DNA of 63,226 nucleotides from Gilliamella sp. App4-10 (lineage in GTDB: Bacteria; Pseudomonadota; Gammaproteobacteria; Enterobacterales; Orbaceae). Where the stretch lies: NCBI RefSeq assembly GCF_001690495.1, contig NZ_LZGS01000026.1, forward strand, positions 1 to 63,226, written 5' to 3'. The notes beneath the pieces were generated by a model. That model was not told where the DNA came from. It saw only the letters and a program-made list of their open reading frames with translations, and searched no databases. Made by a program: the position numbers and the translations under genes. Shown here in pieces: positions 4,458 through 63,226 of the stretch (positions within the stretch are counted from its first letter, which is position 1; every line of letters starts with the position of its first letter).

Positions 4458-4727
4458 TTAACTAGTTAAGTTAGGAATGTCAGTGATAACGGTTTGGATA
4501 TAGTCGATCATGGTTGATAGCATGGATGGACCCCATATTATCAAAACCACAATAACCACTATGATCTTGGGAATAAATGATAATGTCATTTCGTTAATTT
4601 GCGTTGCTGCTTGTAATAAGCTAATGATTAACCCTGTTACTAATGCCGCTAACAGTAATGGTCCTGCTAGTGATACAGTGACTTTTATTGCTTGTATTGC
4701 TAAGGTGCTAATATATTCAGGTGACAT
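4458..4727 (-). CDS. fliQ: Flagellar export apparatus protein FliQ
   Basis: 89 residues from the ATG at 4727, exactly the E. coli FliQ length. A longer frame could start at a TTG at 4739, but the ATG gives the family N-terminus MSPEYI. Two long hydrophobic helices flank the near-invariant SLLQAATQINEMTLSFIPK segment. FliQ is one of the small export-gate subunits that pack around FliP/FliR. It lies 8 bases after the fliP stop, consistent with translational coupling. Confidence 0.95.
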   Translation of the reverse strand: MSPEYISTLAIQAIKVTVSLAGPLLLAALVTGLIISLLQAATQINEMTLSFIPKIIVVIVVLIIWGPSMLSTMIDYIQTVITDIPNLTS

Positions 4728-48115: not shown

Positions 48116-48544
48116 CTATGTGTAACGTGGAGCTTTACGTATATATTTAAGGCGCGCTTTGCCGTCAGACATAAAATAGGTCCCATATTTGACCAGCGCC
48201 CCCTCTTTGAAATGACAAACTAGTTCATAAGCTAATACCATGGTGTCAGTATTTTGTTCATCAATATTAATTTTAATCGATGCCAATCTTGGTTCATATT
48301 TTAATAACGTTTGTTCAATTGCCCTCATCAAAATATAGGCAGATGAGGGCAAAGCCTGAAAGATTGTTGACATATCAGGTAAACCATAGTCTGGCAGGTG
48401 TTTTATAGCGCCAGCTCGGCTATTTAAAATACGCTCAATATTATCCATCACGCTGATAATGGTCTGTTCATTCTCAGGCACATCATCAACCGCTATGCCT
48501 GACTCAAAATAACCGTAAAGCTGCTCGTAAAGTGAAGCGCTCAT
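48116..48544 (-). CDS. tssE: T6SS baseplate protein TssE
   Basis: 142 residues of the gp25/gpW (lysozyme-like fold) family. The N-terminal half has VMDNIERILNSRAGAI and PDYGLPDM, the usual TssE marks, and the C-terminal half has FKEGALVKYGTYFMSDGKARL. TssE is a baseplate wedge piece that touches the sheath. It is the last gene of the minus-strand tss block, overlapping tssJ by four bases. Confidence 0.93.
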   Translation of the reverse strand: MSASLYEQLYGYFESGIAVDDVPENEQTIISVMDNIERILNSRAGAIKHLPDYGLPDMSTIFQALPSSAYILMRAIEQTLLKYEPRLASIKINIDEQNTDTMVLAYELVCHFKEGALVKYGTYFMSDGKARLKYIRKAPRYT

Positions 48545-49059
48545 TTATTTTCTTCCACCAATCTAATTGTATATTGACTTGCGATTATTTCGCGAGGTTT
48601 AGTGATATTTAAATCGCCTCGTTTTAACACTATCCGCCAGTTATTCTCTTTTATGTTCGGCTCTTTATAAAGTGCAGCGATCCCTACCGCTTTAGCCTGC
48701 TTATGAAATGGAGCATCAATAGAAATAGCCGTATTGGGTTTTAGTACTATTTCTTTACTTTCAAGCAATGATTCTTTTAATATATCACTATCTTGATCAA
48801 CTAACTCTTGATAAGAAACAGAGTTAAATGCGTCAGCTTTTTTTAATTGATAAATACGGATAACAACAGGCGAGGAGTGTCCATCATCATCCATATTTAA
48901 TTCAGATCTTGCCATAATATCTAAATGCAATGCTCTTACATCCCATGTAAAAATAGAGTTGCTTAAATCGACCGCCCTTTCCGAGGCGCTTTGTGCAATA
49001 CCACATCCCGTTAGCCACAGAGATAATAAGATAGCAGTAAATACAGTAATTATTCTCAT
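48541..49059 (-). CDS. tssJ: T6SS outer membrane lipoprotein TssJ
   Basis: 172 residues with a lipoprotein signal peptide ending in lipobox LTGC (Cys19). The body has VVIRIYQLKKADAFNSVSYQELVDQD-type sequence (about 50-75), VLKPNTAISIDAP and AVGIAALYKEP, matching TssJ/SciN. It anchors the TssL-TssM complex to the outer membrane. It sits between tssG and tssE. Confidence 0.92.
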   Translation of the reverse strand: MRIITVFTAILLSLWLTGCGIAQSASERAVDLSNSIFTWDVRALHLDIMARSELNMDDDGHSSPVVIRIYQLKKADAFNSVSYQELVDQDSDILKESLLESKEIVLKPNTAISIDAPFHKQAKAVGIAALYKEPNIKENNWRIVLKRGDLNITKPREIIASQYTIRLVEENK

Positions 49060-49078
49060 ATTTATTTCCTTTTAAGTG

Positions 49079-50122
49079 TTATGCGGCATAATTCATTCCA
49101 CAATAGCATCCTAAATTTACAGCAATTTCATCTTGTATAGATTCACCATTTACTGTTTTAGTCAATGCAGCTGTTTGTCCTAGTCGACTATTTCTCGATT
49201 TAAGTTGACTACGAGGTAAAAATTGACGTTGGATATACAGTGTCATTTTGGCATCCACTTGATAACCTAAGTAAGCCCGCAATAAAGCTAACAAATCATC
49301 ATATAATTGCCCACCTGGTAGCAAATCTTTAATCTGGCTTTCGTGTTGTGGTGTAATTGCAATATGGACGGTTTGGTTGCACTCTCTGAAGCGAGATCCT
49401 AATATAGTACCGCCATCTAAAGTGGCGCGTTGTTGCCCTTTACCTCCCAACTGCACAGGATTATCCATTGTTTGCCAAACTGGATAAAATTCACTTACGA
49501 CGACTTTTGCATCATCTACTAATACTCGAATTAATCCGACTATCCCTTCGGATGTACGTGTTTTTTGTGTGATTAAACCTAATAATGCTAAAAATCGTGA
49601 TAATGGTGAACCAATTTGTTTACTCGTTCCTTCTATGCCAAATCCCGTTAATCCAAGTAAACATAGTGATATCGGATCTTTACCACCGTTTAAAAAGCTT
49701 GATGGATAATGATATTTGAGCCAAATCCGATAAAATTGGGTTATTACTCGATGATTAAAGATATCTAAAAAATCTGTCATAACTTGATAGTTTTCTTCAC
49801 GACGAATAATATTATCAAGCAAACCCAATGGTAATACAGAATCAACACCATATAATCCTAAAAATCGAGTTCTAACTGTGGTTGGGCGATTAATATAAGG
49901 CGCCCGCTCAATGCATTTTAGCTCACTTGCAGGAAATGACATATCAATTGATGGAGCAAAACGCAGAGGGTCAGCGAGAGGTGTTTCGTGCTTACCTAAT
50001 ACGGGTTCATCTGCATACATTTGTTCAATTAACTGACAAAAACGATAAAAATTTATTTTTGGCAGCTTTTTTTCAAGTGCCTGCATTAAAGGGCTGTTTT
50101 CGATGCTTTGCTGTGATTCCAT
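49079..50122 (-). CDS. tssG: T6SS baseplate protein TssG
   Basis: 347 residues. The N-terminal KINFYRFCQLIEQMY, LRFAPSIDMSFPASE and TRFLGLYGVDSVLPL are typical TssG (ImpH) features, as is GSRFRECNQTVHIAI later on. TssG joins TssF to form the wedge core of the baseplate. The start overlaps the tssF end by 37 bases, so the two are probably translated together. Confidence 0.95.
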   Translation of the reverse strand: MESQQSIENSPLMQALEKKLPKINFYRFCQLIEQMYADEPVLGKHETPLADPLRFAPSIDMSFPASELKCIERAPYINRPTTVRTRFLGLYGVDSVLPLGLLDNIIRREENYQVMTDFLDIFNHRVITQFYRIWLKYHYPSSFLNGGKDPISLCLLGLTGFGIEGTSKQIGSPLSRFLALLGLITQKTRTSEGIVGLIRVLVDDAKVVVSEFYPVWQTMDNPVQLGGKGQQRATLDGGTILGSRFRECNQTVHIAITPQHESQIKDLLPGGQLYDDLLALLRAYLGYQVDAKMTLYIQRQFLPRSQLKSRNSRLGQTAALTKTVNGESIQDEIAVNLGCYCGMNYAA

Positions 50123-51849
50123 ACAATTTTATTTCCTGTTGGTAAAATAACAATCACTAATTGAGTAAATAAGTTAACATCGGCATATAATGCAAAAAAT
50201 TGATGTAACAACTCACCAAAAAGCATCACATCGCCTTCACCTGTAAATTGATAACTGTTAATTGTCACCTCAATCTCTATACCACGTTGTAACATCCCTT
50301 TTTCGGTACGTTTAATCATTCGATGAGAGACATCGACTATACCTTCTAATCGGCGACGATTTAATTCGTTATCTGTCCAATCATATAAAGCAAGAGTTCC
50401 CCGTAAGACTTCCGCATTCATTAATGACAAATAGTTAGGTGCTAAATGAGATAATACTCGCCAATAAAAGCGATCTTCTGTTGGTGGATAGCAAGGTAAT
50501 GTTGGAGAACATAAATTTTGCACTTTAGCAATACTATTTTGGGCGCTACATAGCTCATTAATTCGAGCATTACGTAATGTTTTACGTGGTAACATACCAT
50601 TAGTACCCGTTATGCGTAATGATAAAGTCTCGGGCTCAAACACCTCGTGTCTATCCCAAATCTTACCTCCCAAAATTAACCAGGTATCATGTAGCCCTGA
50701 AGCACCTTTACGAACTCGGGTATGATAGTACCTTTCTGGGGCATCATGTCGTAACATGCCACCGCGATGTTTAAAACTTGTAAAAGGTACATAGTGATAA
50801 CGCCCATGACGGGTGATTGCTTCCACATGCTCAACTGAATAAACCTCAACATGCCCATCTTGACGGAGTAATGGGCGAAGTAAATATTCACTCTCTAACT
50901 GATTTACAACTATTGGATCAGCTTCCATATCGAATAAATTAATGGCAGGTACACAATGTAAACGAATATTATTATGATCAAATGGCATATCACTTGGCCA
51001 GCTTTGGTTAAGCAATAGTTCAATATCAATGTAATCACATTGTTCTGGAACATCACGGATATTTAATCCATGTAAATCAACAAACATAAATTTTTCGCGA
51101 AAGGCAAAATATTCTAATAAAAGTTGATATCCTGCAAAAGCATTATCGGGTTTTAACCATAACCGTTCATCTTCAGCAAAACCAACTGGGGTTATTTTAC
51201 CTTGTAAATTTATACGTTCTTCGGGTTGAGTTGCATAACGTAAGTGCATTGATTCAACCTGTTGCGTTAACATATAATGTAACGTCGAGGCAATCGGTCC
51301 GTCGGCATTCAAATATAATCGTAGTTTAGACAAGTCAAGTTGTTCAAAATCAGCTAACTCCCCAAAACTGAGACGAAGCGTAATCATGCTTCGCCCATCA
51401 TGATGTAAACTCAGTTTTGCTTGACTGATTCTAATCGGTTGTAATGTTACCGTCTGTGTTGTGCGATATGGACATCGAGTGCCTATCTGACCTAGTGGTT
51501 CTGTCTGCACTTGTAATCCATGAGGAATTACTTCTGGGCGAGATAACATTCCATAATTTGGTGTTAACTCGATAATAGACAATGACGGAATTAATCGCAA
51601 ATAGTGCGGCCAAAGTAAACTCACTAAGCTTTCGGTAAGTTCAGGTAAGTCATCATCAATTTTTTGGCGTAATCGTCCAGTTAAAAAGGCAAAACCTTCA
51701 AATAAACGCTCTACATAAGGATCACGATCACCAACGCGATCTAAGTTAAGTTGACTTGCTCTATCAGGATGAATTTTGGCAAATTCTTTTCCAGCTTCCC
51801 GCAAATAACGCATTTCGGATTCGTAATAACGTAAAATTAAATCATCCAT
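50086..51849 (-). CDS. tssF: T6SS baseplate protein TssF
   Basis: 587 residues, usual TssF (ImpG/VasA) size. The N-terminus YYESEMRYLREAGKEFAKIHP, DPYVERLFEGFAFLTGRLRQKIDDD and LVSLLWPHYLRLIPS is near-diagnostic. It binds TssG and TssK in the baseplate. Gene order tssA-tssF-tssG is standard. It is 54 bases after tssA. Confidence 0.97.
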   Translation of the reverse strand: MDDLILRYYESEMRYLREAGKEFAKIHPDRASQLNLDRVGDRDPYVERLFEGFAFLTGRLRQKIDDDLPELTESLVSLLWPHYLRLIPSLSIIELTPNYGMLSRPEVIPHGLQVQTEPLGQIGTRCPYRTTQTVTLQPIRISQAKLSLHHDGRSMITLRLSFGELADFEQLDLSKLRLYLNADGPIASTLHYMLTQQVESMHLRYATQPEERINLQGKITPVGFAEDERLWLKPDNAFAGYQLLLEYFAFREKFMFVDLHGLNIRDVPEQCDYIDIELLLNQSWPSDMPFDHNNIRLHCVPAINLFDMEADPIVVNQLESEYLLRPLLRQDGHVEVYSVEHVEAITRHGRYHYVPFTSFKHRGGMLRHDAPERYYHTRVRKGASGLHDTWLILGGKIWDRHEVFEPETLSLRITGTNGMLPRKTLRNARINELCSAQNSIAKVQNLCSPTLPCYPPTEDRFYWRVLSHLAPNYLSLMNAEVLRGTLALYDWTDNELNRRRLEGIVDVSHRMIKRTEKGMLQRGIEIEVTINSYQFTGEGDVMLFGELLHQFFALYADVNLFTQLVIVILPTGNKIVWNHSKASKTAL

Positions 51850-51903
51850 TGTTTATCTCTTTATTGTTTATATTAGTTTGATTATTTTTTATCGTTGATA
51901 AAA

Positions 51904-53529
51904 TTACATCACACTTAATGCCCTAGCAGGATCTAGCTGGATTAGCTCTTGCTGTAATAACTCAGCTAACTCCAACATATGTGGTTTTATCATCTCTTTA
52001 GATTTGTTTTTTTGTTTGATTAATCGCAATAAGCATCGCTTAACATCAAATAATAATTCTTGTTCCCACTGAATTAAAGTTAAAGATTGCTGTTGTTTAT
52101 TTAGTCCAATTAATAGGTTTAATGCGATATCTTGCTTGCCAGATTGTTCAGCAACTCTTGCTTGGGTATATTGCAACAAATATCGTTGCTTAGGCGAGCG
52201 CAGCAAGGGTAAATTTTGTAACCATTGAAACGCCGTTTCTAAATTTTCATTATGAACAAGCTCTAATGCTTGCTTCTCAATTTCATTCCAATCATTCTCA
52301 CCGTGTACGGTAATAGGTCCCATACTATCGCCCTCATCTAGATGATGAATACGTGCATTATTGGCAATCCAACTTAATGTTTCATCATCTGCAAATGGCA
52401 TACCATTTTCAAAACAGAGGCGTTCAACACCATTTAGTCGTTCAAGCATTAAACCGATATCTGTTAAATAAATATCAGCCCAAGATTGATAAGGCTCTCC
52501 CATTTTTTGGAGCGACATCACTGTGGCTCTTTGTAAATCTAACCAAAAATGATTAGCACTTTCCATAAAAGCAGTTTCAACACGTTCAAAAAGTTCTGAC
52601 CATTGTTGTTGAAGAATTAAACGGCTAATATGCTGTTTAAGTTCATTTCTTGGTGCTGGTAGCCGTGTTCTCCCTCGATGATCTGCTGGGGGCAAATCAA
52701 TAATCATGTCCCACCTAAGTACTCGCAAAAATCGCCCTGCGGCAAGATATCCCTCTGGTTTTTCACGTAAAAATGCTGCCATTTTACGCGCTTGATCAAA
52801 CAAATCACGTTGAGAGCGAAACTTCATTTCTGTTATATTTGTATGGGATTGTAATTGCGAAGAAGCTGGCGATGCTATCGACGTAGTCTCATCAACATTA
52901 GTTGTTTTAACAGAAAGATTTTTATCATTATTCTTTATACTATTATTAAAGAAGTGAACTAGCGCTGACAAATCAGGAGCAGAAATAGGTTGATTAGGAT
53001 CATTGCTTACAAACAACTTTTGGCAACAACTATCAATCTGGTTCAATGCAATAATAATGCGTGTCAAGCAAGGTTCAGGTAGAGGTTGCAATTGAGTGAG
53101 AGGTTCAACAAATCTTGTATTAGCAAGCCACTCTACAGCGTTTTTACGAATATTATGCCGTGAAGGGAAAATTGATGATCCAAATTTGTCCAATAATCCA
53201 GCTAAGAGTTCAACACCATCAGCAAATCCCTCTGCACCATCGATATGTAATCGTGCCAAACAATAATAGGTTGCGACTCGAATATCTTTACTATGTTGTT
53301 TTAATATGGTTTCACTTTCAGTAACAATCAGCGAATAATCAATTCCCGATAATTTTGTGATCTCTTCCTTAATTTCCTGAAAGGTATCGTGATAGGTTAA
53401 ATCATCACCCGCGGGTTTATCAGCTGTAACTGGTTGTAACCAATCAAGCCAACGTTGATTTAACTCAGCAGTTACTAATTCATTAGGGCGTTGTTGCCCC
53501 AAAAAACGGCTTAATAATTGGCTAAACAT
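51904..53529 (-). CDS. tssA: T6SS cap/assembly protein TssA
   Basis: 541 residues. An ImpA N-terminal domain lies at about 30-160, with PAGDDLTYHDTFQEIKEEI and YYCLARLHIDGAEGFADGVELLAGLL. A long C-terminal part (about 250-540) has REKPEGYLAAGRFLRVLRWD, LPPADHRGRTRLPAPR and a final PARALSVM, the long (VasJ-like) TssA subtype. TssA starts sheath building and caps the distal end. It is between tssM and tssF. Confidence 0.9.
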   Translation of the reverse strand: MFSQLLSRFLGQQRPNELVTAELNQRWLDWLQPVTADKPAGDDLTYHDTFQEIKEEITKLSGIDYSLIVTESETILKQHSKDIRVATYYCLARLHIDGAEGFADGVELLAGLLDKFGSSIFPSRHNIRKNAVEWLANTRFVEPLTQLQPLPEPCLTRIIIALNQIDSCCQKLFVSNDPNQPISAPDLSALVHFFNNSIKNNDKNLSVKTTNVDETTSIASPASSQLQSHTNITEMKFRSQRDLFDQARKMAAFLREKPEGYLAAGRFLRVLRWDMIIDLPPADHRGRTRLPAPRNELKQHISRLILQQQWSELFERVETAFMESANHFWLDLQRATVMSLQKMGEPYQSWADIYLTDIGLMLERLNGVERLCFENGMPFADDETLSWIANNARIHHLDEGDSMGPITVHGENDWNEIEKQALELVHNENLETAFQWLQNLPLLRSPKQRYLLQYTQARVAEQSGKQDIALNLLIGLNKQQQSLTLIQWEQELLFDVKRCLLRLIKQKNKSKEMIKPHMLELAELLQQELIQLDPARALSVM

Positions 53530-53557
53530 GATAATAATCCATTATTTTAATTAATTG

Positions 53558-56500
53558 TTATTCAAATACCTTTTTAGGTAAAGTAAAGTTACGTAATTTC
53601 AATAATGTTAATGGTCCTTTCCCTAGCTGAGTACGTAAAATAAATCTTAACTTACGTTCATCTGGTGCTTGCCAAATTAGTTCATAACGGCTTGAATCTA
53701 ACGGCTTGACAGATGCAGATTCAAGCAAACGGATCCACGCCCAATCGCCACTATAATATTGATAGAGTCGTAATCCTGACGTATCACTACTCCAACTTAA
53801 TTGAGAATAAGGCGAGTATCCATCCCCCGGCCAATTGAAACGTTGCCAGGTAGGAGATTGGTTAAAATATTCCATCTTTTGTTTATTAATCAACAATTCC
53901 ATTCGCACAATTTTACTACCACTACGAGGCATAAGATCAAACGCCACAGAGACATCACCGGTTGCAAGTAACTCTGTCGATAATTCATTAAATAAATTTA
54001 ATGCATTAAGAAATTTAGATGAAAAATTAAGACCTTGAGCATTGACAGAGTTAATAACCCAAATTCCCCCTTTCTTTTCCAATACACCACTTAGCTCACT
54101 GGTGATAAAACTATCAATAATTCCTGTGTCAGCACGTAAAAAGCGTGCAAGCTCAGCTAACGATGCCTCATTATCACTATTTTTAAAAGGGTAACGACCT
54201 GCAAAAGATTTTTCCCATTGATTGACAATATAATTTTGCCAAACATCGTTAAAACTATTGGCAGCTGGTGCTAATACTACTTGCCATGATTGTTCTAGCG
54301 GTTGTTTAAATAAGCTATAACCGAACCCTGACCACTCTTCACCTAAATTAGCAGCAATTAAGTTACCATAATCTCGTGTTTCGGTTAAATCAACAGATGT
54401 ACCTTTAAAAACACTTTTTGCAAGCCCTTGCATCATCGCTTGGGGATCAGCACTATTGGCTATATTTTGTAATTTTAAGCGAACTTGTGTAATACGCGAT
54501 AGATAGGTTTGTAAAGAAAGCCCATTCTTATTGTCATTATTAAGCAAACTAGTGACAGGTAAAAAAGTTGTAGTTAAAGGTCCCGTTACTTCATTGCTTT
54601 CTGGCAAAGCAATTTTTGATTTATTATCAACAATTTTTTTTGCAGAGCGAATTAAATTATCTGAAAAACCATCACCTTTGTGAGCAACTTCGGATTGATA
54701 TTTAACCACATTAATTAAAGCGATCAAAGGAGACTGACGAGTATCAGCCAATAGTGTAAGCTGCTCAATAATATCTGAAACATTATTATATGATTGCCAC
54801 TGAATCGTATTTAAAAAGTATAGCCATGCAGCACTATACTCACTAAAATAACGGTCGGTAAGTTGTTTTTTTAATGCGTCAGGAGAAATTGAAGCAGTCA
54901 GATCACTTTCTCCATCACTTAAAACCCAGTCAATTTGTTCTTTCCGATATTTTGCTGCTTCAGCAATTTCATCCTCGATAGAATCTTCCCAAGCTTTACG
55001 CGTATAAACGCCTGGTATTTCAGCATTAGAAAAAAATAACATTTTGCTATCTAAACCTTCGAGCAACTGATTCAAGTTTTGATTTGCATAATGTTGGCTC
55101 GCTCGTTGAATCATTTCTTGATAAAGAGTATTAACGGCATTTTGTACACCAATTTTATTAATTAATATTTGCCTAATATTTTTTATTAAATGTACATCAT
55201 TATTTTGTGCCCAATTAGGGTGTAGTTTGAGCAATTGTCCCCAAAAACGCACTAAATCTGGCATTAACATTTGCCACTCACCATCGCTCACGCCTTCGGG
55301 TGTTCGCCATTGTTTTGAAGCAAATTGACTCAAATAAACCCCATCACTTCTCTCTGGATGCCCCATCATTAGATAGACTTTTAGCACATCATATGCTGAA
55401 TCAACCATTTTTATTCGTTTTGGATCATCGGGTGGCAATTCAGTTAACAAGGTCAAATAGTCAGTCATAATATTATAAAATGGCGTAGCAATATTACGCG
55501 AATTTGTTGCTCGGTAAGTAAGCCACATTCTTTTGAGGACCTCATCATTATGATTTAAGCCAAACCGATAAAGTAAAGGTGCGCCTTGTTGCTGACGATA
55601 AAGTAACTGTTCTAAATGCTGTTGTAACTGATGTTGTATGTGTAACCGTGAAGTATAATCTTGTTTAACGGAATTATCAGCCTGTTTCACCAATTCAATA
55701 CTATCATCAATGAGTGATACATTTCGAAAATACGAAGTCCCCAAAGCCAAACACATTGTTCCCATAAGTGAAAGTAACGCATAACAAGACCAAGTTCCCC
55801 ATTGAATTCCCATGCGACGTCCCAATTGTGAATGGGCATCATCACGAATTGATTGCCATGTAGGAGTCATTGCCAGAGAATGATCAAAAATGGTCATATT
55901 TTCATTATTTGGCTTTGATTGATGAGGTGTAAAAAATAGCCCTCTGACATAAGGAGAATAAGGGAAAGCAACGAGTGATGTTAAATAACGTTTAATATTT
56001 GTGATATTACGCTTAGCTAAATCCTGACTTAGTTTAAGTAAAAACGAATAATGCAAATTATCTTTAATTTGTCTTACACCACGCTGACAACATGTTTTTG
56101 CTAATTGATTAAGAGATACAACAACAGACTCCATATCCTCTTTTTTTAATTCAGTAAATAAGACTCCAACACTTTGTTCTATGCGTTCTGTTTGTAACCG
56201 CTCACACTGCTGCCCTGCAACTAAATAAAGTGGTGCTGACCATTTTAAAACTTTATTACGTGTTTGTAACTTTAATACTGCATTTTCGATCCTTGATTGC
56301 TGTTGCCGGTTATCATCAAGATAATGCTTAGATGAAACCCAAATAACAGCATCAAGCGGTTTACTAAAAAATGGGAAAATACGTGAGAAATGTCTTTTTA
56401 ATGCTTGTAACCACAACGTATTTGGGTCATCTTGAATATCACCACCGTATACCATTAGCATATTATCAGATAATTGCCATTGATCTTTTGGCAAATTAGG

Positions 56501-56887
56501 TAACAAAAGCTCAACGTCAGAGAGATTCCCCAAAACTAAACATTTACAAACTTTATAACGCCAAAAAAGTCCTAGACGATATCTACACTGTTTTTTAATA
56601 TCCAGAAATTCTGTAAATAGCAGAGATTCTTTTGGTTTTTCATTTTGAATGGGATTGAGTAACTCACGTTTAGTTTTATCTTGTGCCCACAACCTATAAC
56701 TGTTGGTAATAAGAATTGGGGTCAATAATAAACCAAATAACAGTAACATTCCTTGTAACCATATTTGTACTTTTTGCCCTGTTGCTGTATAGCCAAGCGA
56801 ATCACCCCCAAAAAATAGTCCTAATGCTAATAATATTGCACCTAATAATATAATAAAAATTAATCCAGTCCATTTCCATTTATTCAT
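53558..56887 (-). CDS. tssM: T6SS inner membrane protein TssM (IcmF)
   Basis: 1109 residues. Two N-terminal membrane helices (about 7-27, 37-58) and a third near 370-390 bracket the cytoplasmic domain. A large periplasmic part follows and ends in a beta domain. IcmF-type sequence includes LDAVIWVSSKHYL and PLYLVAGQQCERL. No Walker A (GxxxxGKS/T) is seen in the cytoplasmic domain, so nucleotide binding is doubtful. TssM forms the trans-envelope channel with TssJ and TssL. TssJ is encoded downstream; tssL is not in the window. Confidence 0.93.
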   Translation of the reverse strand: MNKWKWTGLIFIILLGAILLALGLFFGGDSLGYTATGQKVQIWLQGMLLLFGLLLTPILITNSYRLWAQDKTKRELLNPIQNEKPKESLLFTEFLDIKKQCRYRLGLFWRYKVCKCLVLGNLSDVELLLPNLPKDQWQLSDNMLMVYGGDIQDDPNTLWLQALKRHFSRIFPFFSKPLDAVIWVSSKHYLDDNRQQQSRIENAVLKLQTRNKVLKWSAPLYLVAGQQCERLQTERIEQSVGVLFTELKKEDMESVVVSLNQLAKTCCQRGVRQIKDNLHYSFLLKLSQDLAKRNITNIKRYLTSLVAFPYSPYVRGLFFTPHQSKPNNENMTIFDHSLAMTPTWQSIRDDAHSQLGRRMGIQWGTWSCYALLSLMGTMCLALGTSYFRNVSLIDDSIELVKQADNSVKQDYTSRLHIQHQLQQHLEQLLYRQQQGAPLLYRFGLNHNDEVLKRMWLTYRATNSRNIATPFYNIMTDYLTLLTELPPDDPKRIKMVDSAYDVLKVYLMMGHPERSDGVYLSQFASKQWRTPEGVSDGEWQMLMPDLVRFWGQLLKLHPNWAQNNDVHLIKNIRQILINKIGVQNAVNTLYQEMIQRASQHYANQNLNQLLEGLDSKMLFFSNAEIPGVYTRKAWEDSIEDEIAEAAKYRKEQIDWVLSDGESDLTASISPDALKKQLTDRYFSEYSAAWLYFLNTIQWQSYNNVSDIIEQLTLLADTRQSPLIALINVVKYQSEVAHKGDGFSDNLIRSAKKIVDNKSKIALPESNEVTGPLTTTFLPVTSLLNNDNKNGLSLQTYLSRITQVRLKLQNIANSADPQAMMQGLAKSVFKGTSVDLTETRDYGNLIAANLGEEWSGFGYSLFKQPLEQSWQVVLAPAANSFNDVWQNYIVNQWEKSFAGRYPFKNSDNEASLAELARFLRADTGIIDSFITSELSGVLEKKGGIWVINSVNAQGLNFSSKFLNALNLFNELSTELLATGDVSVAFDLMPRSGSKIVRMELLINKQKMEYFNQSPTWQRFNWPGDGYSPYSQLSWSSDTSGLRLYQYYSGDWAWIRLLESASVKPLDSSRYELIWQAPDERKLRFILRTQLGKGPLTLLKLRNFTLPKKVFE

Positions 56888-56902
56888 TTACGACTCCCTA
56901 CT

Positions 56903-58021
56903 TCATTTTGCCACAACTGAAAATAACCATTGATTTTGAGTCATTGTAGCAATTAAATTATTTTGTTTTTTTTGCGTTACCATTTCGCATGTTAATGCTA
57001 GTGAAAGCCAGAAAGATAATTCAGTTTGATTACCCACTATACTTTCTAATTGATGCATCTGTTCGGGGGAGATATCCCATTGCGCCAACTGTTTAGTAAC
57101 ATCTACTTGTTGTTTGTTATCAAGATTTGAAAACCAAAGTTGTTTTGCATGATGAATGGCATGTTGGATTTCGACCATCTGCTGAATGCCTAAAGACATA
57201 TCCGAGGTGATCATAGGTCGTAAAATTTCACTTTTTGCTACGTCAATAGTTAAATCTTGATAAGATGTTTTATCAGTCAATAAAAAACCACATAAGAAAG
57301 CAGATCCTAAGGAGCTAGTATTATCAATAATAATTAACTGTAAGGCTGATTGAGGACTATCAATCAATTCCATTAATTTATCAATATCAACATGATTCAT
57401 GATATGGAAGGACACCGTATAAGGTTGTGCAATTTTTGCATTTTTATAGGCATCATTAATATTGTTTCCAATAAGACCATATGACTCAGGTGACGAGTAA
57501 ACAATAATATTGATAGGTTCTTTAACCGGCAATTGAGATAACATATCTCGCATTGATATAAATAGACACTCAATATGTTCATTTAAATCAAATTTTTCAT
57601 CAAATGCTAATGATTTATTAATTTTAGAACTCACATTTGGATTATTTGTCAAAAGGTCGTCTAGGTTGAGTTTATTAGGTAAAACATAGAAACTATCAAG
57701 AACAACTAATGATTGCATTGCCCAATCTTGCCAATTTTGCTCAATATTTTTTTGTTCATGTTGCCATATTTCATACTCTTCTTGCGCAAGACCGTAAAAA
57801 TAAAGCCGGACACTAATAGCAATACTTTCTATCACTGTTGAAATAAACACAATGCTTAACCAAAATTGCCATTGTAAAAAAGAGTTGTTATCAGGCCACA
57901 TTAAAGCAAGCACGATACTTGTAATTAAAAACAATATGATAAAAAAGCATAGCCATCTTCCACGATGTAATGCCTTAGGCGCTTTTAATATATCAATAAT
58001 GATAGGTTTAGACCAAGACAT
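56903..58021 (-). CDS. T6SS-locus membrane protein of unknown function
   Basis: 372 residues. Two hydrophobic helices lie near the N-terminus (about 21-42 and 52-75). A cytoplasmic or periplasmic body without recognisable motifs follows. It is not TssL: no DotU pattern and no C-terminal anchor are seen. A stretch at about 165-180 (PINIIVYSSPESYG) and one near 235 (LQLIIIDNTSSLGSAFL) look like beta-alpha units. It lies between the PAAR gene and tssM, with only short gaps, so it is likely a locus-specific T6SS part. Similar small-family genes next to tssM are found in other enteric-type T6SS loci, but I cannot name this one. Confidence 0.75.
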   Translation of the reverse strand: MSWSKPIIIDILKAPKALHRGRWLCFFIILFLITSIVLALMWPDNNSFLQWQFWLSIVFISTVIESIAISVRLYFYGLAQEEYEIWQHEQKNIEQNWQDWAMQSLVVLDSFYVLPNKLNLDDLLTNNPNVSSKINKSLAFDEKFDLNEHIECLFISMRDMLSQLPVKEPINIIVYSSPESYGLIGNNINDAYKNAKIAQPYTVSFHIMNHVDIDKLMELIDSPQSALQLIIIDNTSSLGSAFLCGFLLTDKTSYQDLTIDVAKSEILRPMITSDMSLGIQQMVEIQHAIHHAKQLWFSNLDNKQQVDVTKQLAQWDISPEQMHQLESIVGNQTELSFWLSLALTCEMVTQKKQNNLIATMTQNQWLFSVVAK

Positions 58022-58588: not shown

Positions 58589-59386
58589 TTATTTTTGCAA
58601 ATATGATACAACCGAAGCGGTAAATTGTATCTTACCTACCATGATCAATTGTTTATCTTTTTTGATAAATACACTATCAATAGCTAACGCTAATGCCAAC
58701 CAATATGAACAATCTCCAGCATAACCAATTGAAGTATCGATATTAAAATTATTTTTTGCTTCAAACTGTATTTGATTAAAAAGTAGTTTATCATTTCATT
58801 TTTAAATTTGACGAAATACCGCTATACCAAACTCCACCATAATGGTTATCATCATCATTGCCCCCACAATAAGGCGTTATCAATAGTCTGTTTTAGTTTT
58901 ACTACGATAAATTTTTATTAATGGTGAATGAAAAGTAAGAAAAAATGGCGCTCTAATTACCTTTTCTCCTAACAAAAATAGCATTGAAGCAAACTCATCA
59001 TCATGATCTCTATCATCTAACCATGTTTCTATAAATATAAATGAATGGCTTGGCTCTTCAATTGCAAAACTAACAGGATGATAAATTATTTTTCCCAATG
59101 TTTCCATCCATAATGCCTTTATTTTATCGTTTGAAATTTCAGCATCAATAAATAACCTGACATGCAAACTAATTGCATTGATTGGGTGCGACCATAACAA
59201 GCAGATATTGCTTGTCTGCCCCTTGCTCTATTTTGACCTTAGCCAACTGCTCTTCACAATCAGTTAGATAGACCACACAGGTTTAACGGCTTTGCGCGCT
59301 AAAATGGGGAAGTTTAAGATGTACGTGCAAACCACCTGTATAATCTAATATATCAAGATCATTTTGGCTACATATAAAATAATTCT
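58589..59386 (-). pseudogene. Decayed gene of unknown function, T6SS locus
   Basis: Protein-like pieces follow one another in different frames, broken by stops. In order they are DLDILDYTGGLHVHLKLPHF, then VVYLTDCEEQLAKVKIEQ. A 106-codon open piece follows (58880-59200, HVRLFIDAEISNDKIKALWM to FIFIETWLDDRDHDDEF), then TPYCGGNDDDNHYGGVWYSG. Last is FNIDTSIGYAGDCSYWLALA ending at 58589. I do not recognise the protein. Its place between the repeated array and PAAR suggests a lost effector or immunity gene. The junction to the broken repeat copy lies at an 11-base AAAAAGTAGTT shared with the repeat units. Confidence 0.6.
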
Positions 59387-59972
59387 CAAAAAGTAGTTCA
59401 TTAATAGCACGCAAATAACATAAAAGATAAAATAAGGTATATAAAAGTGCTTAAAGGCCTGCTTTCTTCCCCCTAGACATGGCGGAATGAGCGAGATAAT
59501 TTGTTCACTGGGTTTGGCATGGCGTACACTTCGTAATGGTCAGCGTGCTTTTCGGCGACCACCTCGACCTGATCGCCATCATTAAATTTATAAAAACCGA
59601 GCCAACCTTTTAACGTGATGGTGCCGTTTAATTTGGCGGTGATATTTGTGCGGAGAACAAATTACTACGGTCATTACCATTAGCATGCCCTAAACCGGCT
59701 AATGCGGCAATGCTATTACCATTTAAAGTAGCAAGTAGTGCGCCCTTTCTAAGTTGGTTGTTGTGTTTTTGTTTTTGCTCGTCACTTAAATAAGCCCCAT
59801 CACCAAGTGGTGCATAGCAAAATAGACCTTTAAATTCGGATAGAGTGCCGGTTAGTTTAACCAAATTTTTGGGCGGTACGATTGGATCGGTAATACTAAT
59901 ACCGGTTTTTTTTAATAGCTGCTCTTTGTCGTTATAGATAGGGTCGTTACCATCATATTTTGCGTAAGGCAT
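59387..59972 (-). pseudogene. Broken last copy of the repeated membrane-protein gene (copy E)
   Basis: The frame starts at the ATG at 59972 like the other copies and is intact for 114 codons. It then meets a one-base deletion near 59645 and stops at 59628. The homologous DNA goes on in a second frame (LKGWLGFYKFNDGDQVEVVA), with another single-base deletion near 59518 (GGTTTGGCAT against GGTTTGAGCAT in the intact copies). It fades out at about 59387 inside the first membrane segment. The 3' part was replaced by the unknown decayed gene downstream. Confidence 0.85.
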
Positions 59973-59991
59973 AATAATATTCTCTAACGTA

Positions 59992-60945
59992 TTATTTTCT
60001 TTTTTTTCTGTTTTTATTTTTAACGCGTAAAGTAGGCCTGCCTTTTTTGCATAATACCTCTGGATCGTAGTAAAAAAAACCCCAACCTTCGCCAGGTTTT
60101 GGGGGTCTAATATATTGATCGGTAATATCATATTTAGTTGAATATTTACCTTGTTCAATTAATCTAACTATATATTGTTTACTTATTTTTACTAAATTGA
60201 TATTGGTGACATTTTGCCAATCCAATACTGTAAAAATGCGCTCGGCAAGGGTAATGTATGTCACGATTGAATTTTTATAAACCATAAAAAAAGCTGCCCC
60301 TAATATTACCCCTAATGTACTAAAACCAATGGTCATATTTTCCAACGAAAAATCAAGAAAAAAGTAGTTCATAAGTAGAGTGCAAACAATATAAAATATA
60401 AAAAAAGGTATATAAAAGTGCTTAAAGGCTTGTTTTCTTCCCCCTAGACAGGGTGGAATGAGCGAGATAATTTGTTCACTGGGTTTGAGCATGGCGTACA
60501 CTTCGTAATGGTCAGCGTGCTTTTCGGCGACCACCTCGACTTGATCGCCATCGTTAAATTTATAAAAACCGATCCAACCTTTTAACGCGATGGTGTCATT
60601 TAATTTGGCCGTAATATACTGAGCATCTACCTCATTACTACGATCATTACCATTGGCGTGCCCTAAGCCGGCCAGCGCAGCAATGCTATTACCGTTTAAG
60701 GTGGCAAGTAGTGCGCCCTTTCTAAGTTGATTGTTGTGTTTTTGCTTTTGCTCGTCACTTAAATAAGCGCCATCAGCAAGTGGCGCATAGCAAAATAGAC
60801 CTTTAAATTCGGATAAGGTGCCGGTTAGTTTAACCAAATTTTTGGGCGGTAGGATTGGATCGGTAATACTAATACCGTTTTTTTTTAATAGCTGCTCTTT
60901 GTCTTTATAGATAGGGTCTTTGCCATCATATTTTGCGTAAGGCAT
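59992..60945 (-). CDS. Repeated T6SS-locus membrane protein, copy D
   Basis: 317 residues from the ATG at 60945. The open frame goes back to 61056, but only through the end of copy C in another frame. Residues 1-165 form a soluble domain almost identical in all copies (MPYAKYDGKDPIYKDKEQLL, GLFCYAPLADGAYLS, ALAGLGHANGNDRSN). A variable tripeptide (EVD) comes just after NDRSN. Two membrane helices at about 180-222 and a basic tail ending KNKNRKKRK follow. I cannot give a function. Its place upstream of PAAR and its copy number suggest a T6SS effector or immunity role. The IIPPCLGGRKQAFKHFYIP segment differs from B and C. Confidence 0.8.
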   Translation of the reverse strand: MPYAKYDGKDPIYKDKEQLLKKNGISITDPILPPKNLVKLTGTLSEFKGLFCYAPLADGAYLSDEQKQKHNNQLRKGALLATLNGNSIAALAGLGHANGNDRSNEVDAQYITAKLNDTIALKGWIGFYKFNDGDQVEVVAEKHADHYEVYAMLKPSEQIISLIPPCLGGRKQAFKHFYIPFFIFYIVCTLLMNYFFLDFSLENMTIGFSTLGVILGAAFFMVYKNSIVTYITLAERIFTVLDWQNVTNINLVKISKQYIVRLIEQGKYSTKYDITDQYIRPPKPGEGWGFFYYDPEVLCKKGRPTLRVKNKNRKKRK

Positions 60946-60964
60946 AATCGAATTCCTTATGAAA

Positions 60965-61912
60965 TTATTTTCTTTTTTTATTTTTAACCCATAATGGTGG
61001 CTTGCCTTTTTTGCATAATACCTCAGGATCGTAATAAAAAAAGAACCAGCCATCACCTGATTTTGGCGGTCTAATATATTGATCAGTTTTATTATTATAC
61101 TTTTCTACATATTTTTCTTGGATAATTAATTTAGCAACATATTGCTTACTTATTTTGGCTAAATTAATGTTAGTAACATCTTTCCAGCCTAACACAGTAA
61201 AAATGCGCTCGGCAAGCGTGACATGCGAGGCAAGCGAATTTTTATAAACCATGAAATTAGCTGCACCAAATATTACCCCTAATGAACCAAAACCAATGAC
61301 CAAATTTTCTAAACTAAAATCGAGAAAAAAGTAGTTCATTAATAGCACGCAAGTAACATAAAAGAGAAACATAGGCAAACGATAAATTTTGAATGCTTGA
61401 TTACGCCCGGCAAAACACAAAGGGACAAGTGATATAATTTGTTCACTGGGTTTGAGCATGGCGTACACTTCGTAATGGTCAGCGTGTTTTTCGGCGACCA
61501 CCTCGACTTGATCGCCATCATTAAATTTATAAAAACCGATCCAACCTTTTAACGTGATGGTGTCATTCAACTTGGCAGTGATATATTGTGCCGCAAATAG
61601 ATTACTACGGTCATTACCATTGGCATGGCCTAAGCCAGCCAGCGCAGCAATGCTATTACCATTTAAAGTGGCAAGTAGTGCGCCCTTTCTAAGCTGATTT
61701 TGCTGTTTTTGTTTTTGTTCATCACTTAAATAAGCGCCATCAGCAAGTGGCGCATAACAAAATAGACCTTTAAATTCGGATAGGGTACCGGTTAATTTAA
61801 CCAAATATTTGGGCGGTAGGATTGGATCGGTAATACTAATACCGGTTTTTTTTAATAGCTGCTCTTTGTCGTTATAGATAGGGTCGTTACCATCATATTT
61901 TGCGTAAGGCAT
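60965..61912 (-). CDS. Repeated T6SS-locus membrane protein, copy C
   Basis: 315 residues from the ATG at 61912. A second ATG at 61915 lies directly ahead, with AAGGA five to eight bases upstream. It has the same layout as its neighbours: conserved N-terminal domain (LPPKYLVKLTGTLSEFKGLF, one Asn-to-Tyr change), tripeptide LFA after NDRSN, helices at about 179-198 and 203-223, tail KKGKPPLWVKNKKRK. It is spaced 19 bases from copy B. Function unknown; see the array entry. Confidence 0.8.
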   Translation of the reverse strand: MPYAKYDGNDPIYNDKEQLLKKTGISITDPILPPKYLVKLTGTLSEFKGLFCYAPLADGAYLSDEQKQKQQNQLRKGALLATLNGNSIAALAGLGHANGNDRSNLFAAQYITAKLNDTITLKGWIGFYKFNDGDQVEVVAEKHADHYEVYAMLKPSEQIISLVPLCFAGRNQAFKIYRLPMFLFYVTCVLLMNYFFLDFSLENLVIGFGSLGVIFGAANFMVYKNSLASHVTLAERIFTVLGWKDVTNINLAKISKQYVAKLIIQEKYVEKYNNKTDQYIRPPKSGDGWFFFYYDPEVLCKKGKPPLWVKNKKRK

Positions 61913-61931
61913 CATTGAATTCCTTATGAAC

Positions 61932-62879
61932 TTATTTTCTTTTTTTATTTTTACCCCGTAAGGGAGGCTTGCCTTTTTTGCATAATACCTCAGGGTCGTA
62001 GTAAAAAAAATACCAGCCACCACCTGATTTAGGCGGTCTAATATGTGGATCTGTTTTATTATTATATTTTGTTGCATATTTCCCTTGGGCAATTAATTTA
62101 GCAACATATTGTCTACTTATTTTAACTAAATTAATATTGGTGACATCTTGCCAGCCCAACACAGTAAAAATGCGCTCAGCCAGCGTGATATGAGTCGCAA
62201 TTGAATTTTTATATACATTGAAAATAGCTAGCCCGAAGATTACCCCTAATGAGCCAAAACCAATGGTCAGATTTTCCAATGAAAAATCAAGAAAAAAGTA
62301 GTTCATTAATAGCACACAAATAACATAAAAAATAAACATGGGGAAATGATTGTATTTTAATGCCTGATTACGGCCGGCAAAACATAAAGGGACAAGTGAG
62401 ATAATCTGTTCACTGGGTTTGAGCATGGCGTACACTTCGTAATGGTCAGCGTGTTTTTCGGCGACCACCTCGACTTGATCGCCATCATTAAATTTATAAA
62501 AACCGATCCAACCTTTTAACGTGATGGTGTCATTTAATTTGGCGCTAATATATTGTGCTTGCACATAATTACTACGGTCATTACCATTGGCATGCCCTAA
62601 GCCAGCCAGCGCAGCAATGCTATTACCATTTAAAGTAGCAAGTAGTGCGCCCTTTCTAAGCTGGTTGTTGTGTTTTTGTTTTTGCTCGTCACTTAAATAA
62701 GCGCCATCAGCAAGTGGTGCATAGCAAAACAGACCTTTAAACTCGGATAGGGTGCCGGTTAATTTCACCAAATTTTTGGGCGGTAGGATTGGCTCGGTAA
62801 TACTAATACCGGTTTTTTTTAATAGCTGCTCTTTGTCTTTATAGATAGGGTCGTTACCATCATATTTTGCGTAAGGCAT
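61932..62879 (-). CDS. Repeated T6SS-locus membrane protein, copy B
   Basis: 315 residues from the ATG at 62879. An upstream in-frame extension to 63065 only reads through copy A in the wrong frame. The N-terminal domain includes KLTGTLSEFKGLFCYAPLAD and KGWIGFYKFNDGDQVEVVAE, which together look like a small beta-barrel fold. The variable tripeptide is YVQ. The helices are FPMFIFYVICVLLMNYFFL and about 203-222. The basic tail is KPPLRGKNKKRK. No catalytic motif or signal peptide is seen, so the N-terminus should face the cytoplasm. Confidence 0.8.
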   Translation of the reverse strand: MPYAKYDGNDPIYKDKEQLLKKTGISITEPILPPKNLVKLTGTLSEFKGLFCYAPLADGAYLSDEQKQKHNNQLRKGALLATLNGNSIAALAGLGHANGNDRSNYVQAQYISAKLNDTITLKGWIGFYKFNDGDQVEVVAEKHADHYEVYAMLKPSEQIISLVPLCFAGRNQALKYNHFPMFIFYVICVLLMNYFFLDFSLENLTIGFGSLGVIFGLAIFNVYKNSIATHITLAERIFTVLGWQDVTNINLVKISRQYVAKLIAQGKYATKYNNKTDPHIRPPKSGGGWYFFYYDPEVLCKKGKPPLRGKNKKRK

Positions 62880-62898
62880 AATAATATTCTCTAACGTA

Positions 62899-63226
62899 TT
62901 ATTTTCTTTTTTTTCTGTTTTTATTTTTAACGCGTAAAGGAGGCCTGCCTTTTTTGCATAATACCTCTGGATCGTAGTAAAAAAAACCCCACCCTTCGCC
63001 AGGTTTTGGGGGTCTAATATATTGATCGGTAATATCATATTTAGTTGAATATTTACCTTGTTCAATTAATCTAACTATATATTGTTTACTTATTTTTACT
63101 AAATTGATATTGGTGACATTTTGCCAATCCAATACTGTAAAAATGCGCTCGGCAAGGGTAATGTATGTCACGATTGAATTTTTATAAACCATAAAAAAAG
63201 CTGCCCCTAATATTACCCCTAATGTA
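62899..63226 (-). CDS. Repeated T6SS-locus membrane protein, copy A (5' part outside window)
   Basis: Only the last 108 codons are in the window: end of helix 2, then LAERIFTVLDWQNVTNINLV, FFYYDPEVLCKKGRPPLRV and the KKRK end. This stretch is almost identical to copy D, base for base from 60158 on. The start should lie near 63846-63852 if the spacing holds. Confidence 0.8.
   Translation of the reverse strand, partial: TLGVILGAAFFMVYKNSIVTYITLAERIFTVLDWQNVTNINLVKISKQYIVRLIEQGKYSTKYDITDQYIRPPKPGEGWGFFYYDPEVLCKKGRPPLRVKNKNRKKRK

Follow-up and report, generated by a model that had tools for sequence, protein, structure and literature searches.

The window analyzed here, a 63,226-nucleotide contig of Gilliamella sp. 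App4-10, ends in a row of similar genes whose products are predicted to carry two membrane helices, and this row lies beside PAAR and tss genes of a type VI secretion system (T6SS). The locus raises the question of whether such genes encode toxins or the proteins that guard against them, and why several are kept side by side. An initial annotation made from the DNA letters alone considered immunity and toxin equally good fits. Gene context supports both the T6SS link and immunity, and it disfavors a toxin. We assign a probability of about 0.86 to the explanation that the array is a poly-immunity cluster directed against pore-forming BTH_I2691/VasX_N T6SS effectors, in which the family proteins would provide the protection.

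A profile search places the genes in a named family. The three intact copies in the window score 115-121 bits against the NCBIfam model NF041560 (T6SS_Burk_ExIF), exceeding its curated cut-off of 90, and thus are members. Scans of the family proteins with Pfam, PHROGs and PADLOC returned nothing meaningful. The genome carries 23 family matches on contigs C10, C19, C20, C26 (the window) and C48, 12 of which span the full query length at 82-100% identity. Family matches are present in 35 of 44 Orbaceae genomes (27 above the cut-off), and among a sample of 369 gammaproteobacterial genomes, matches came from the window's own genome and from three others, weak in all three. A scan of named genomes gave at least 16 family loci, eight from Gilliamella and eight from Burkholderiales. 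A literature search did not find 'ExIF' together with type VI secretion, and no report of the NF041560 family as immunity was found in the literature searched, whose coverage excludes most subscription journals.

The position of the family genes in related genomes points to their partner. We examined 20 stretches of DNA, four from the same genome and 16 from twelve others, and 16 of them show family genes behind a large gene of the same orientation. Typically, vgrG and an adaptor-like gene precede this large gene, which has ~980-1230 codons, and one to eight family genes come after it. The four exceptions are contig C19, which holds copies only, contig C48, where a contig end lies upstream, and loci L059 and L070, which have another kind of effector and an effector remnant, respectively. 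Pfam VasX_N and NCBIfam NF041559 (the BTH_I2691 effector family) were recognized in all six large proteins scanned, four of them from the first set of stretches and two from the second set. A single adaptor was scanned, and it matches DUF4123 and Tla1 weakly. In the window the effector position is cut off by the contig end. In locus L068, from another Gilliamella species, a single stretch runs from vgrG and the adaptor through the effector and four copies to PAAR, a further gene and TssM. It is an unbroken counterpart of the window locus apart from its vgrG, which is cut by the contig start. The two effector heads found with family copies in the App4-10 genome itself are borne by contigs C10 and C20. 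The partner of such arrays is the vgrG-adaptor-BTH_I2691 effector module directly upstream, and not PAAR. In relatives, the family gene stands directly downstream of the toxin gene, as is asked of an immunity gene, and up to eight homologues follow a single effector, the arrangement that defines poly-immunity. We infer the protective function itself.

Effector linkage extends beyond the stretches examined individually. The 150 family matches listed form 70 clusters, and effector adjacency is a lower bound, with 56 of ~150 listed effector matches typed. Among the matches listed, a BTH_I2691 effector match lies no more than 400 bases upstream of at least 11 of the 12 clusters with four or more copies and has their orientation, the twelfth being contig C19, which is filled by copies. 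The corresponding figure for clusters of two or three is at least 7 of 17 within 1 kb. A hand count of 22 family rows from eight Burkholderiales genomes gave seven family matches located 45-112 bases behind a full-length effector match and three located 47-66 bases behind a match to the last part of an effector only, the remainder being later cluster members, fragments, or rows without an effector. These C-terminal matches look like stumps of lost effectors, the immunity gene having stayed. Robbsia andropogonis (L141:219-3776) carries an effector and a family gene as one 1185-codon frame, which is either a fusion or a sequencing matter.

Two layouts show family genes behind effectors of other kinds. 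Contig C20 carries an effector of another class, then the first copy that belongs to it (33% identical), then a window-type copy. At L059:8281-15029 (genome G027), a phospholipase D-type protein and two other genes precede two family genes. Both arrangements resemble the replacement of effectors, with retention of their immunity genes, that has been described for Vibrio cholerae (PMC5361080). A separate observation concerns L065:3167-4426, where a TsiV-type gene (Type VI immunity for VRR-NUC, PF11876) sits just upstream of a BTH_I2691-type effector; a gene sharing the start sequence of the TsiV-type gene comes next, at position 4472.

If the first family gene protects against the adjacent effector, then the sequences of the two should go together, and they do so at the level of effector class. 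For 19 pairs hand-picked with both genes complete (VgrG available in 11 and the adaptor in 18), effector identities and first-copy identities agree (Mantel rho 0.757, with 0 of 2000 permutations as high). At 19 of 19 loci, the effector that goes with the nearest first copy is of the same class (at least 40% identical). All eight genomes that have two loci carry first copies that are 16-28% identical to each other beside effectors that are 16-19% identical, and VgrG is 67-94% identical between paired loci in the four of these genomes compared. VgrG agrees poorly with the first copy (rho 0.255, p 0.08, 11 loci).

The distribution of T6SS genes is also informative. TssM was accepted in 32 of 44 Orbaceae genomes, with the weak rows of G010 (E 2.8e-4) and G011 (E 6.8e-4) counted as TssM-negative. 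Effector matches go with TssM (p 1.6e-4), and genomes with more of them also tend to have more family matches (rho 0.44, p 0.003). The initial annotation had proposed asking whether copy number tracks T6SS presence. Four or more family matches occur only in TssM-positive genomes (14 of 32 versus 0 of 12). Nine of the 12 genomes without an accepted TssM keep one to three family matches, and six of these nine also have no BTH_I2691 match, one of the six being only 67% complete. In the neighborhoods read from four TssM-negative genomes (L126-L129), family genes stand amid ordinary genes with no effector. L129 has two adjoining family genes and the other three are single, with L126 and L127 occupying the same chromosomal place in two species. 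A shield retained without a weapon fits immunity, whereas an effector retained without a secretion system fits poorly.

Several observations weigh against assigning an immunity function to this family. NCBIfam itself labels NF041560 a 'putative type VI secretion system effector'. Single copies mostly lie apart from effectors, with at least 2 of 41 having a match within 1 kb and at least 6 of 41 within 6 kb upstream among the matches listed. The initial annotation named a family found mostly away from T6SS loci as the outcome that would count against it, and this description applies to the singletons, 35 of which have no typed effector match among those listed in that interval, and not to the large clusters. 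In a rank test, family copy number shows no significant relationship with TssM (p 0.07). Agreement with the first copy is as good for the adaptor (rho 0.793, 18 loci) as for the effector, indicating that adaptor, effector and immunity gene travel together, and transfer of whole modules could by itself yield the class matching. Within the window class, effector and first copy show no match at the level of alleles (10 pairs from five loci, rho -0.26 to 0.24); adding a sixth, distant locus (15 pairs) gives a rho of 0.57 to 0.75 that reflects overall divergence. Two effectors that are 89% identical have first copies that are only 65% identical. Finally, the AlphaFold2 model of the family protein has modest confidence, with a predicted local distance difference test score of 67.9.

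How the array came to hold several copies was addressed by aligning 33 window-type copies from six genomes, with the contig-end-cut copy on C10 left out of the tree. This tree requires 22 changes of genome label, against a minimum of 5 and a mean of 20.0 for shuffled labels. The mean DNA distance within arrays is 0.1315 versus 0.1306 when shuffled (P 0.41), and the closest pair inside any single array is at least 6% apart. In a set of 20 copies drawn from four other genomes, 18 have their closest relative, judged by protein identity, in a different array. For example, the first copy on C10 shares 98.7% protein identity with the second copy of a G. bombi array, and window copy 2 shares 98.1% with the seventh copy of Gilliamella sp. 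App6-5. Because the tree, distance and nearest-relative results all mix genomes, the copies appear to be variants common to several species and arranged in varying order, not fresh duplicates. The near-identical duplicates described in the initial annotation thus find no support, as a copy resembles its array neighbors no more than it resembles copies of other species. Arrays of one genome can share near-identical units: a 1732-base stretch at window positions 61106-62837 is identical to L060:10139-11870 on C10, reflecting either recent transfer between arrays or an assembly effect.

Variation among the copies is distributed unevenly. The ratio of nonsynonymous to synonymous substitution rates (dN/dS) among 12 copies from the genome is 0.11 at residues 36-165 (0.11-0.12 for the soluble domain), which shows purifying selection, and 0.33 at the hairpin of residues 179-228 (0.33-0.40). 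The synonymous rate (dS) is 0.07 at residues 1-35 versus about 1.1 at residues 166-178, and the mean DNA distance among the 33 copies is 0.09 over residues 1-165 versus 0.18 over residues 166-300. The low silent divergence at the 5' end would fit recombination there. A soluble part of about 165 residues had initially been called nearly invariant, which roughly holds; in the membrane part, two other copies have only 74 and 80% DNA identity to the reference copy. The two membrane helices and the Lys/Arg-rich tail noted at the outset were recovered, with the hydrophobic helices at about 179-197 and 204-222 by hydropathy and at 170-195 and 201-226 in the AlphaFold2 model. The greatest variation between copies falls in this transmembrane hairpin and the tail.

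The effectors of the window class vary in a comparable place. Among five of them, the most varied stretch is residues 961-1080 (21-33% mean pairwise difference in three 40-residue bins), which adjoins the strongest hydrophobic segment; residues 841-960 differ by 1-10% and residues 201-240 by up to 22%. Since both partners vary in a membrane part, the pattern suggests that effector and family protein may touch through their membrane parts. Effector and first-copy variation are uncorrelated between loci (10 pairs of five loci).

These observations lead us to propose a model in which the family genes encode inner-membrane immunity proteins. The conserved N-terminal domain, predicted to form a barrel resembling the oligonucleotide/oligosaccharide-binding fold, and the Lys/Arg-rich tail would both be cytoplasmic. 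The hairpin of two helices, sitting in the inner membrane, would block that part of the effector which inserts into the membrane, in a manner similar to the immunity proteins of pore-forming colicins. The first gene behind the effector would protect the producer, and the further copies would be variants gathered by recombination between strains and species that may protect against variant effectors of rivals.

Three other explanations must be weighed against this model. The family genes might encode small membrane-acting T6SS effectors, as their database description and their association with vgrG loci would imply. However, the large effector that precedes them has a VasX_N domain and an adaptor of its own, a Pfam delivery domain was not found in the family proteins, family diversity follows effector class, and copies are retained in the six genomes with neither an accepted TssM nor an effector match. 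We therefore consider this explanation highly improbable. We likewise regard as very unlikely a dosage amplification, in which one immunity gene was duplicated in place to make more protein. The uniform period and spacer length of the head-to-tail units are what such a process would leave, but the within-array distances and label changes near their shuffled values, the frequency with which the nearest relative lies in another array, and the separation of all pairs within one array speak against it.

A less easily dismissed, though still unlikely, alternative is that the copies are passive leftovers, stranded by successive effector replacement and of no present use. The broken copy at the end of the array, the arrangement on C20, and the effector stumps beside copies in Burkholderiales are all consistent with this account. 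Arguing for continued use are the low dN/dS across the soluble domain, the retention of orphans in genomes without an accepted TssM, and the state of the copies in the arrays read, which are mostly open frames with a stretch resembling a ribosome-binding site. The leftover and poly-immunity explanations overlap, as replacement may be a route by which copies arrive. As an extension of the poly-immunity explanation, we tentatively entertain the idea, to which we give somewhat less than even odds, that the arrays are libraries of exchangeable alleles, with the conserved 5' half serving as a recombination handle and the 3' half (hairpin and tail) as a swappable specificity part.

The 2.43 Mb genome, from a Gilliamella-like member of the Orbaceae, is split into 53 contigs, of which the window is C26. 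Among the matches listed its nearest named relatives are Gilliamella, with copies up to 98% identical. The array (59384-63226, minus strand) has five head-to-tail units with a start-to-start period of ~967-973 bases. The initial annotation described at least five units of about 970 bases, each with a gene of about 315 codons; the period and orientation stand, and only three of the genes are intact (315-317 codons), one other being truncated by the contig end and one broken. All four stop-to-next-start spacers are 19 bases, including that from copy 1 to copy 2, and a stretch resembling a ribosome-binding site precedes every array gene start. As first described, the array lies upstream of PAAR and the tss genes on the same (minus) strand. 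The gene names in the tss block, apart from tssM, are tentative. Feature coordinates are collected in the table.

Table. Features of the immunity-type array and adjoining T6SS genes in the window
Feature	Position	Strand	Basis
Immunity-type gene, 3' part only (residues about 211-315), truncated by contig end	62911..63226	-	Hit from a search of the own genome, covering query residues 211-315
Intact copy 1, 315 codons, NF041560 family	61932..62879	-	Open reading frame, profile, own-genome match; GAGA-type ribosome-site-like stretch before start
Intact copy 2, 315 codons, NF041560 family	60965..61912	-	Open reading frame, profile, own-genome match; AAGGA before start
Predicted transmembrane hairpin of copy 2 (helices at residues 170-195 and 201-226), falling in the region that differs more between copies	61235..61405	-	AlphaFold2 helices, hydropathy, dN/dS by region
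Intact copy 3, 317 codons, NF041560 family	59992..60945	-	Open reading frame, profile, own-genome match
Broken copy: residues 1-111, 110-159 and 153-197 as separate pieces; two frame breaks, lacks 3' third	59384..59972	-	Own-genome match
PAAR gene, 88 amino acids	58026..58292	-	Pfam PAAR_motif, E 3.3e-22
TssM/IcmF gene	53558..56887	-	TIGR03348 at 53573-55813, E 8.9e-78, 260.6 bits, under the model cut-off of 388
tss block, after array and PAAR	48116..58021	-	Open reading frames; TssM is the one component profile-tested

The gap between the broken copy and PAAR is ~1.1 kb in the window and ~0.4 kb in L068. It holds a 106-codon open frame (58880-59200) that has no NCBIfam or Pfam matches. The end of contig C19 overlaps the window end exactly by 106 bases, and a join of the two is compatible with this overlap but not proved, because a further copy in the window contains this sequence too.

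The principle of an immunity array behind a T6SS effector is already known. In Pseudomonas putida, Tki5 neutralizes the BTH_I2691 pore former Tke5, whose toxic part is a helical region (PMC12909789). That locus likewise combines a BTH_I2691 pore-forming effector, a DUF4123 adaptor, an adjoining immunity gene and PAAR behind, but it has a single immunity gene instead of a row of copies (PMC12909789). A smaller gene behind a BTH_I2691 effector in S. maltophilia has been called a probable immunity gene (PMC13055248). The Stenotrophomonas rhizophila vgrG3 locus is a closer match in layout, with vgrG, an adaptor, the BTH_I2691-family effector gene tse3, and then tsi3a plus 12 homologues, a type of arrangement termed poly-immunity clusters (PMC13340143). 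Tsi3a is annotated as DUF6708 (PMC13340143), whereas DUF6708 (PF20455) was absent from the Pfam matches of 20 members of the window family at E 0.5. The candidate assignment of the window family to the DUF6708 immunity family was rejected on this basis and on hhalign probabilities of 5% and 0.4%. DUF6708 matches occur in 28 of 44 Orbaceae genomes, and DUF6708 arrays in Orbaceae likewise follow BTH_I2691/VasX_N effectors, with no detectable sequence kinship to the window family. A genome of the genus Gilliamella, for example, has 11 DUF6708-type genes in a row behind a 1318-amino-acid VasX_N/BTH_I2691 effector (L122:7234-16865).

Vibrio cholerae immunity arrays also place several immunity genes downstream of one effector; effector displacement leaves immunity genes there that are thought to come from different strains, and these arrays can mix unrelated immunity types (PMC5361080). 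In contrast, the arrays described here contain a single family; the genes are separated by 19-base spacers, and their 5' halves are more conserved than their 3' halves. A survey of T6SS in the bee gut treats Rhs and VgrG, and its main text has no words starting with VasX, DUF4123 or pore (PMC8125069). The arrays described here would follow the known principle in a family listed under an effector's name, and the sharing of its variants across species forms a clear pattern.

If the immunity function is correct, the database name of this family would be corrected from effector to immunity for its members in both Orbaceae and Burkholderiales, and the family would constitute a second, unrelated immunity family for BTH_I2691 pore-forming effectors. 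Should the arrays prove to be libraries of alleles, then bee-gut species would exchange protective alleles and build up stocks of them against each other's variants of one pore-forming effector. The shared variants, which occur naturally in a simple gut community, would allow direct tests of the specificity and trading of T6SS immunity.

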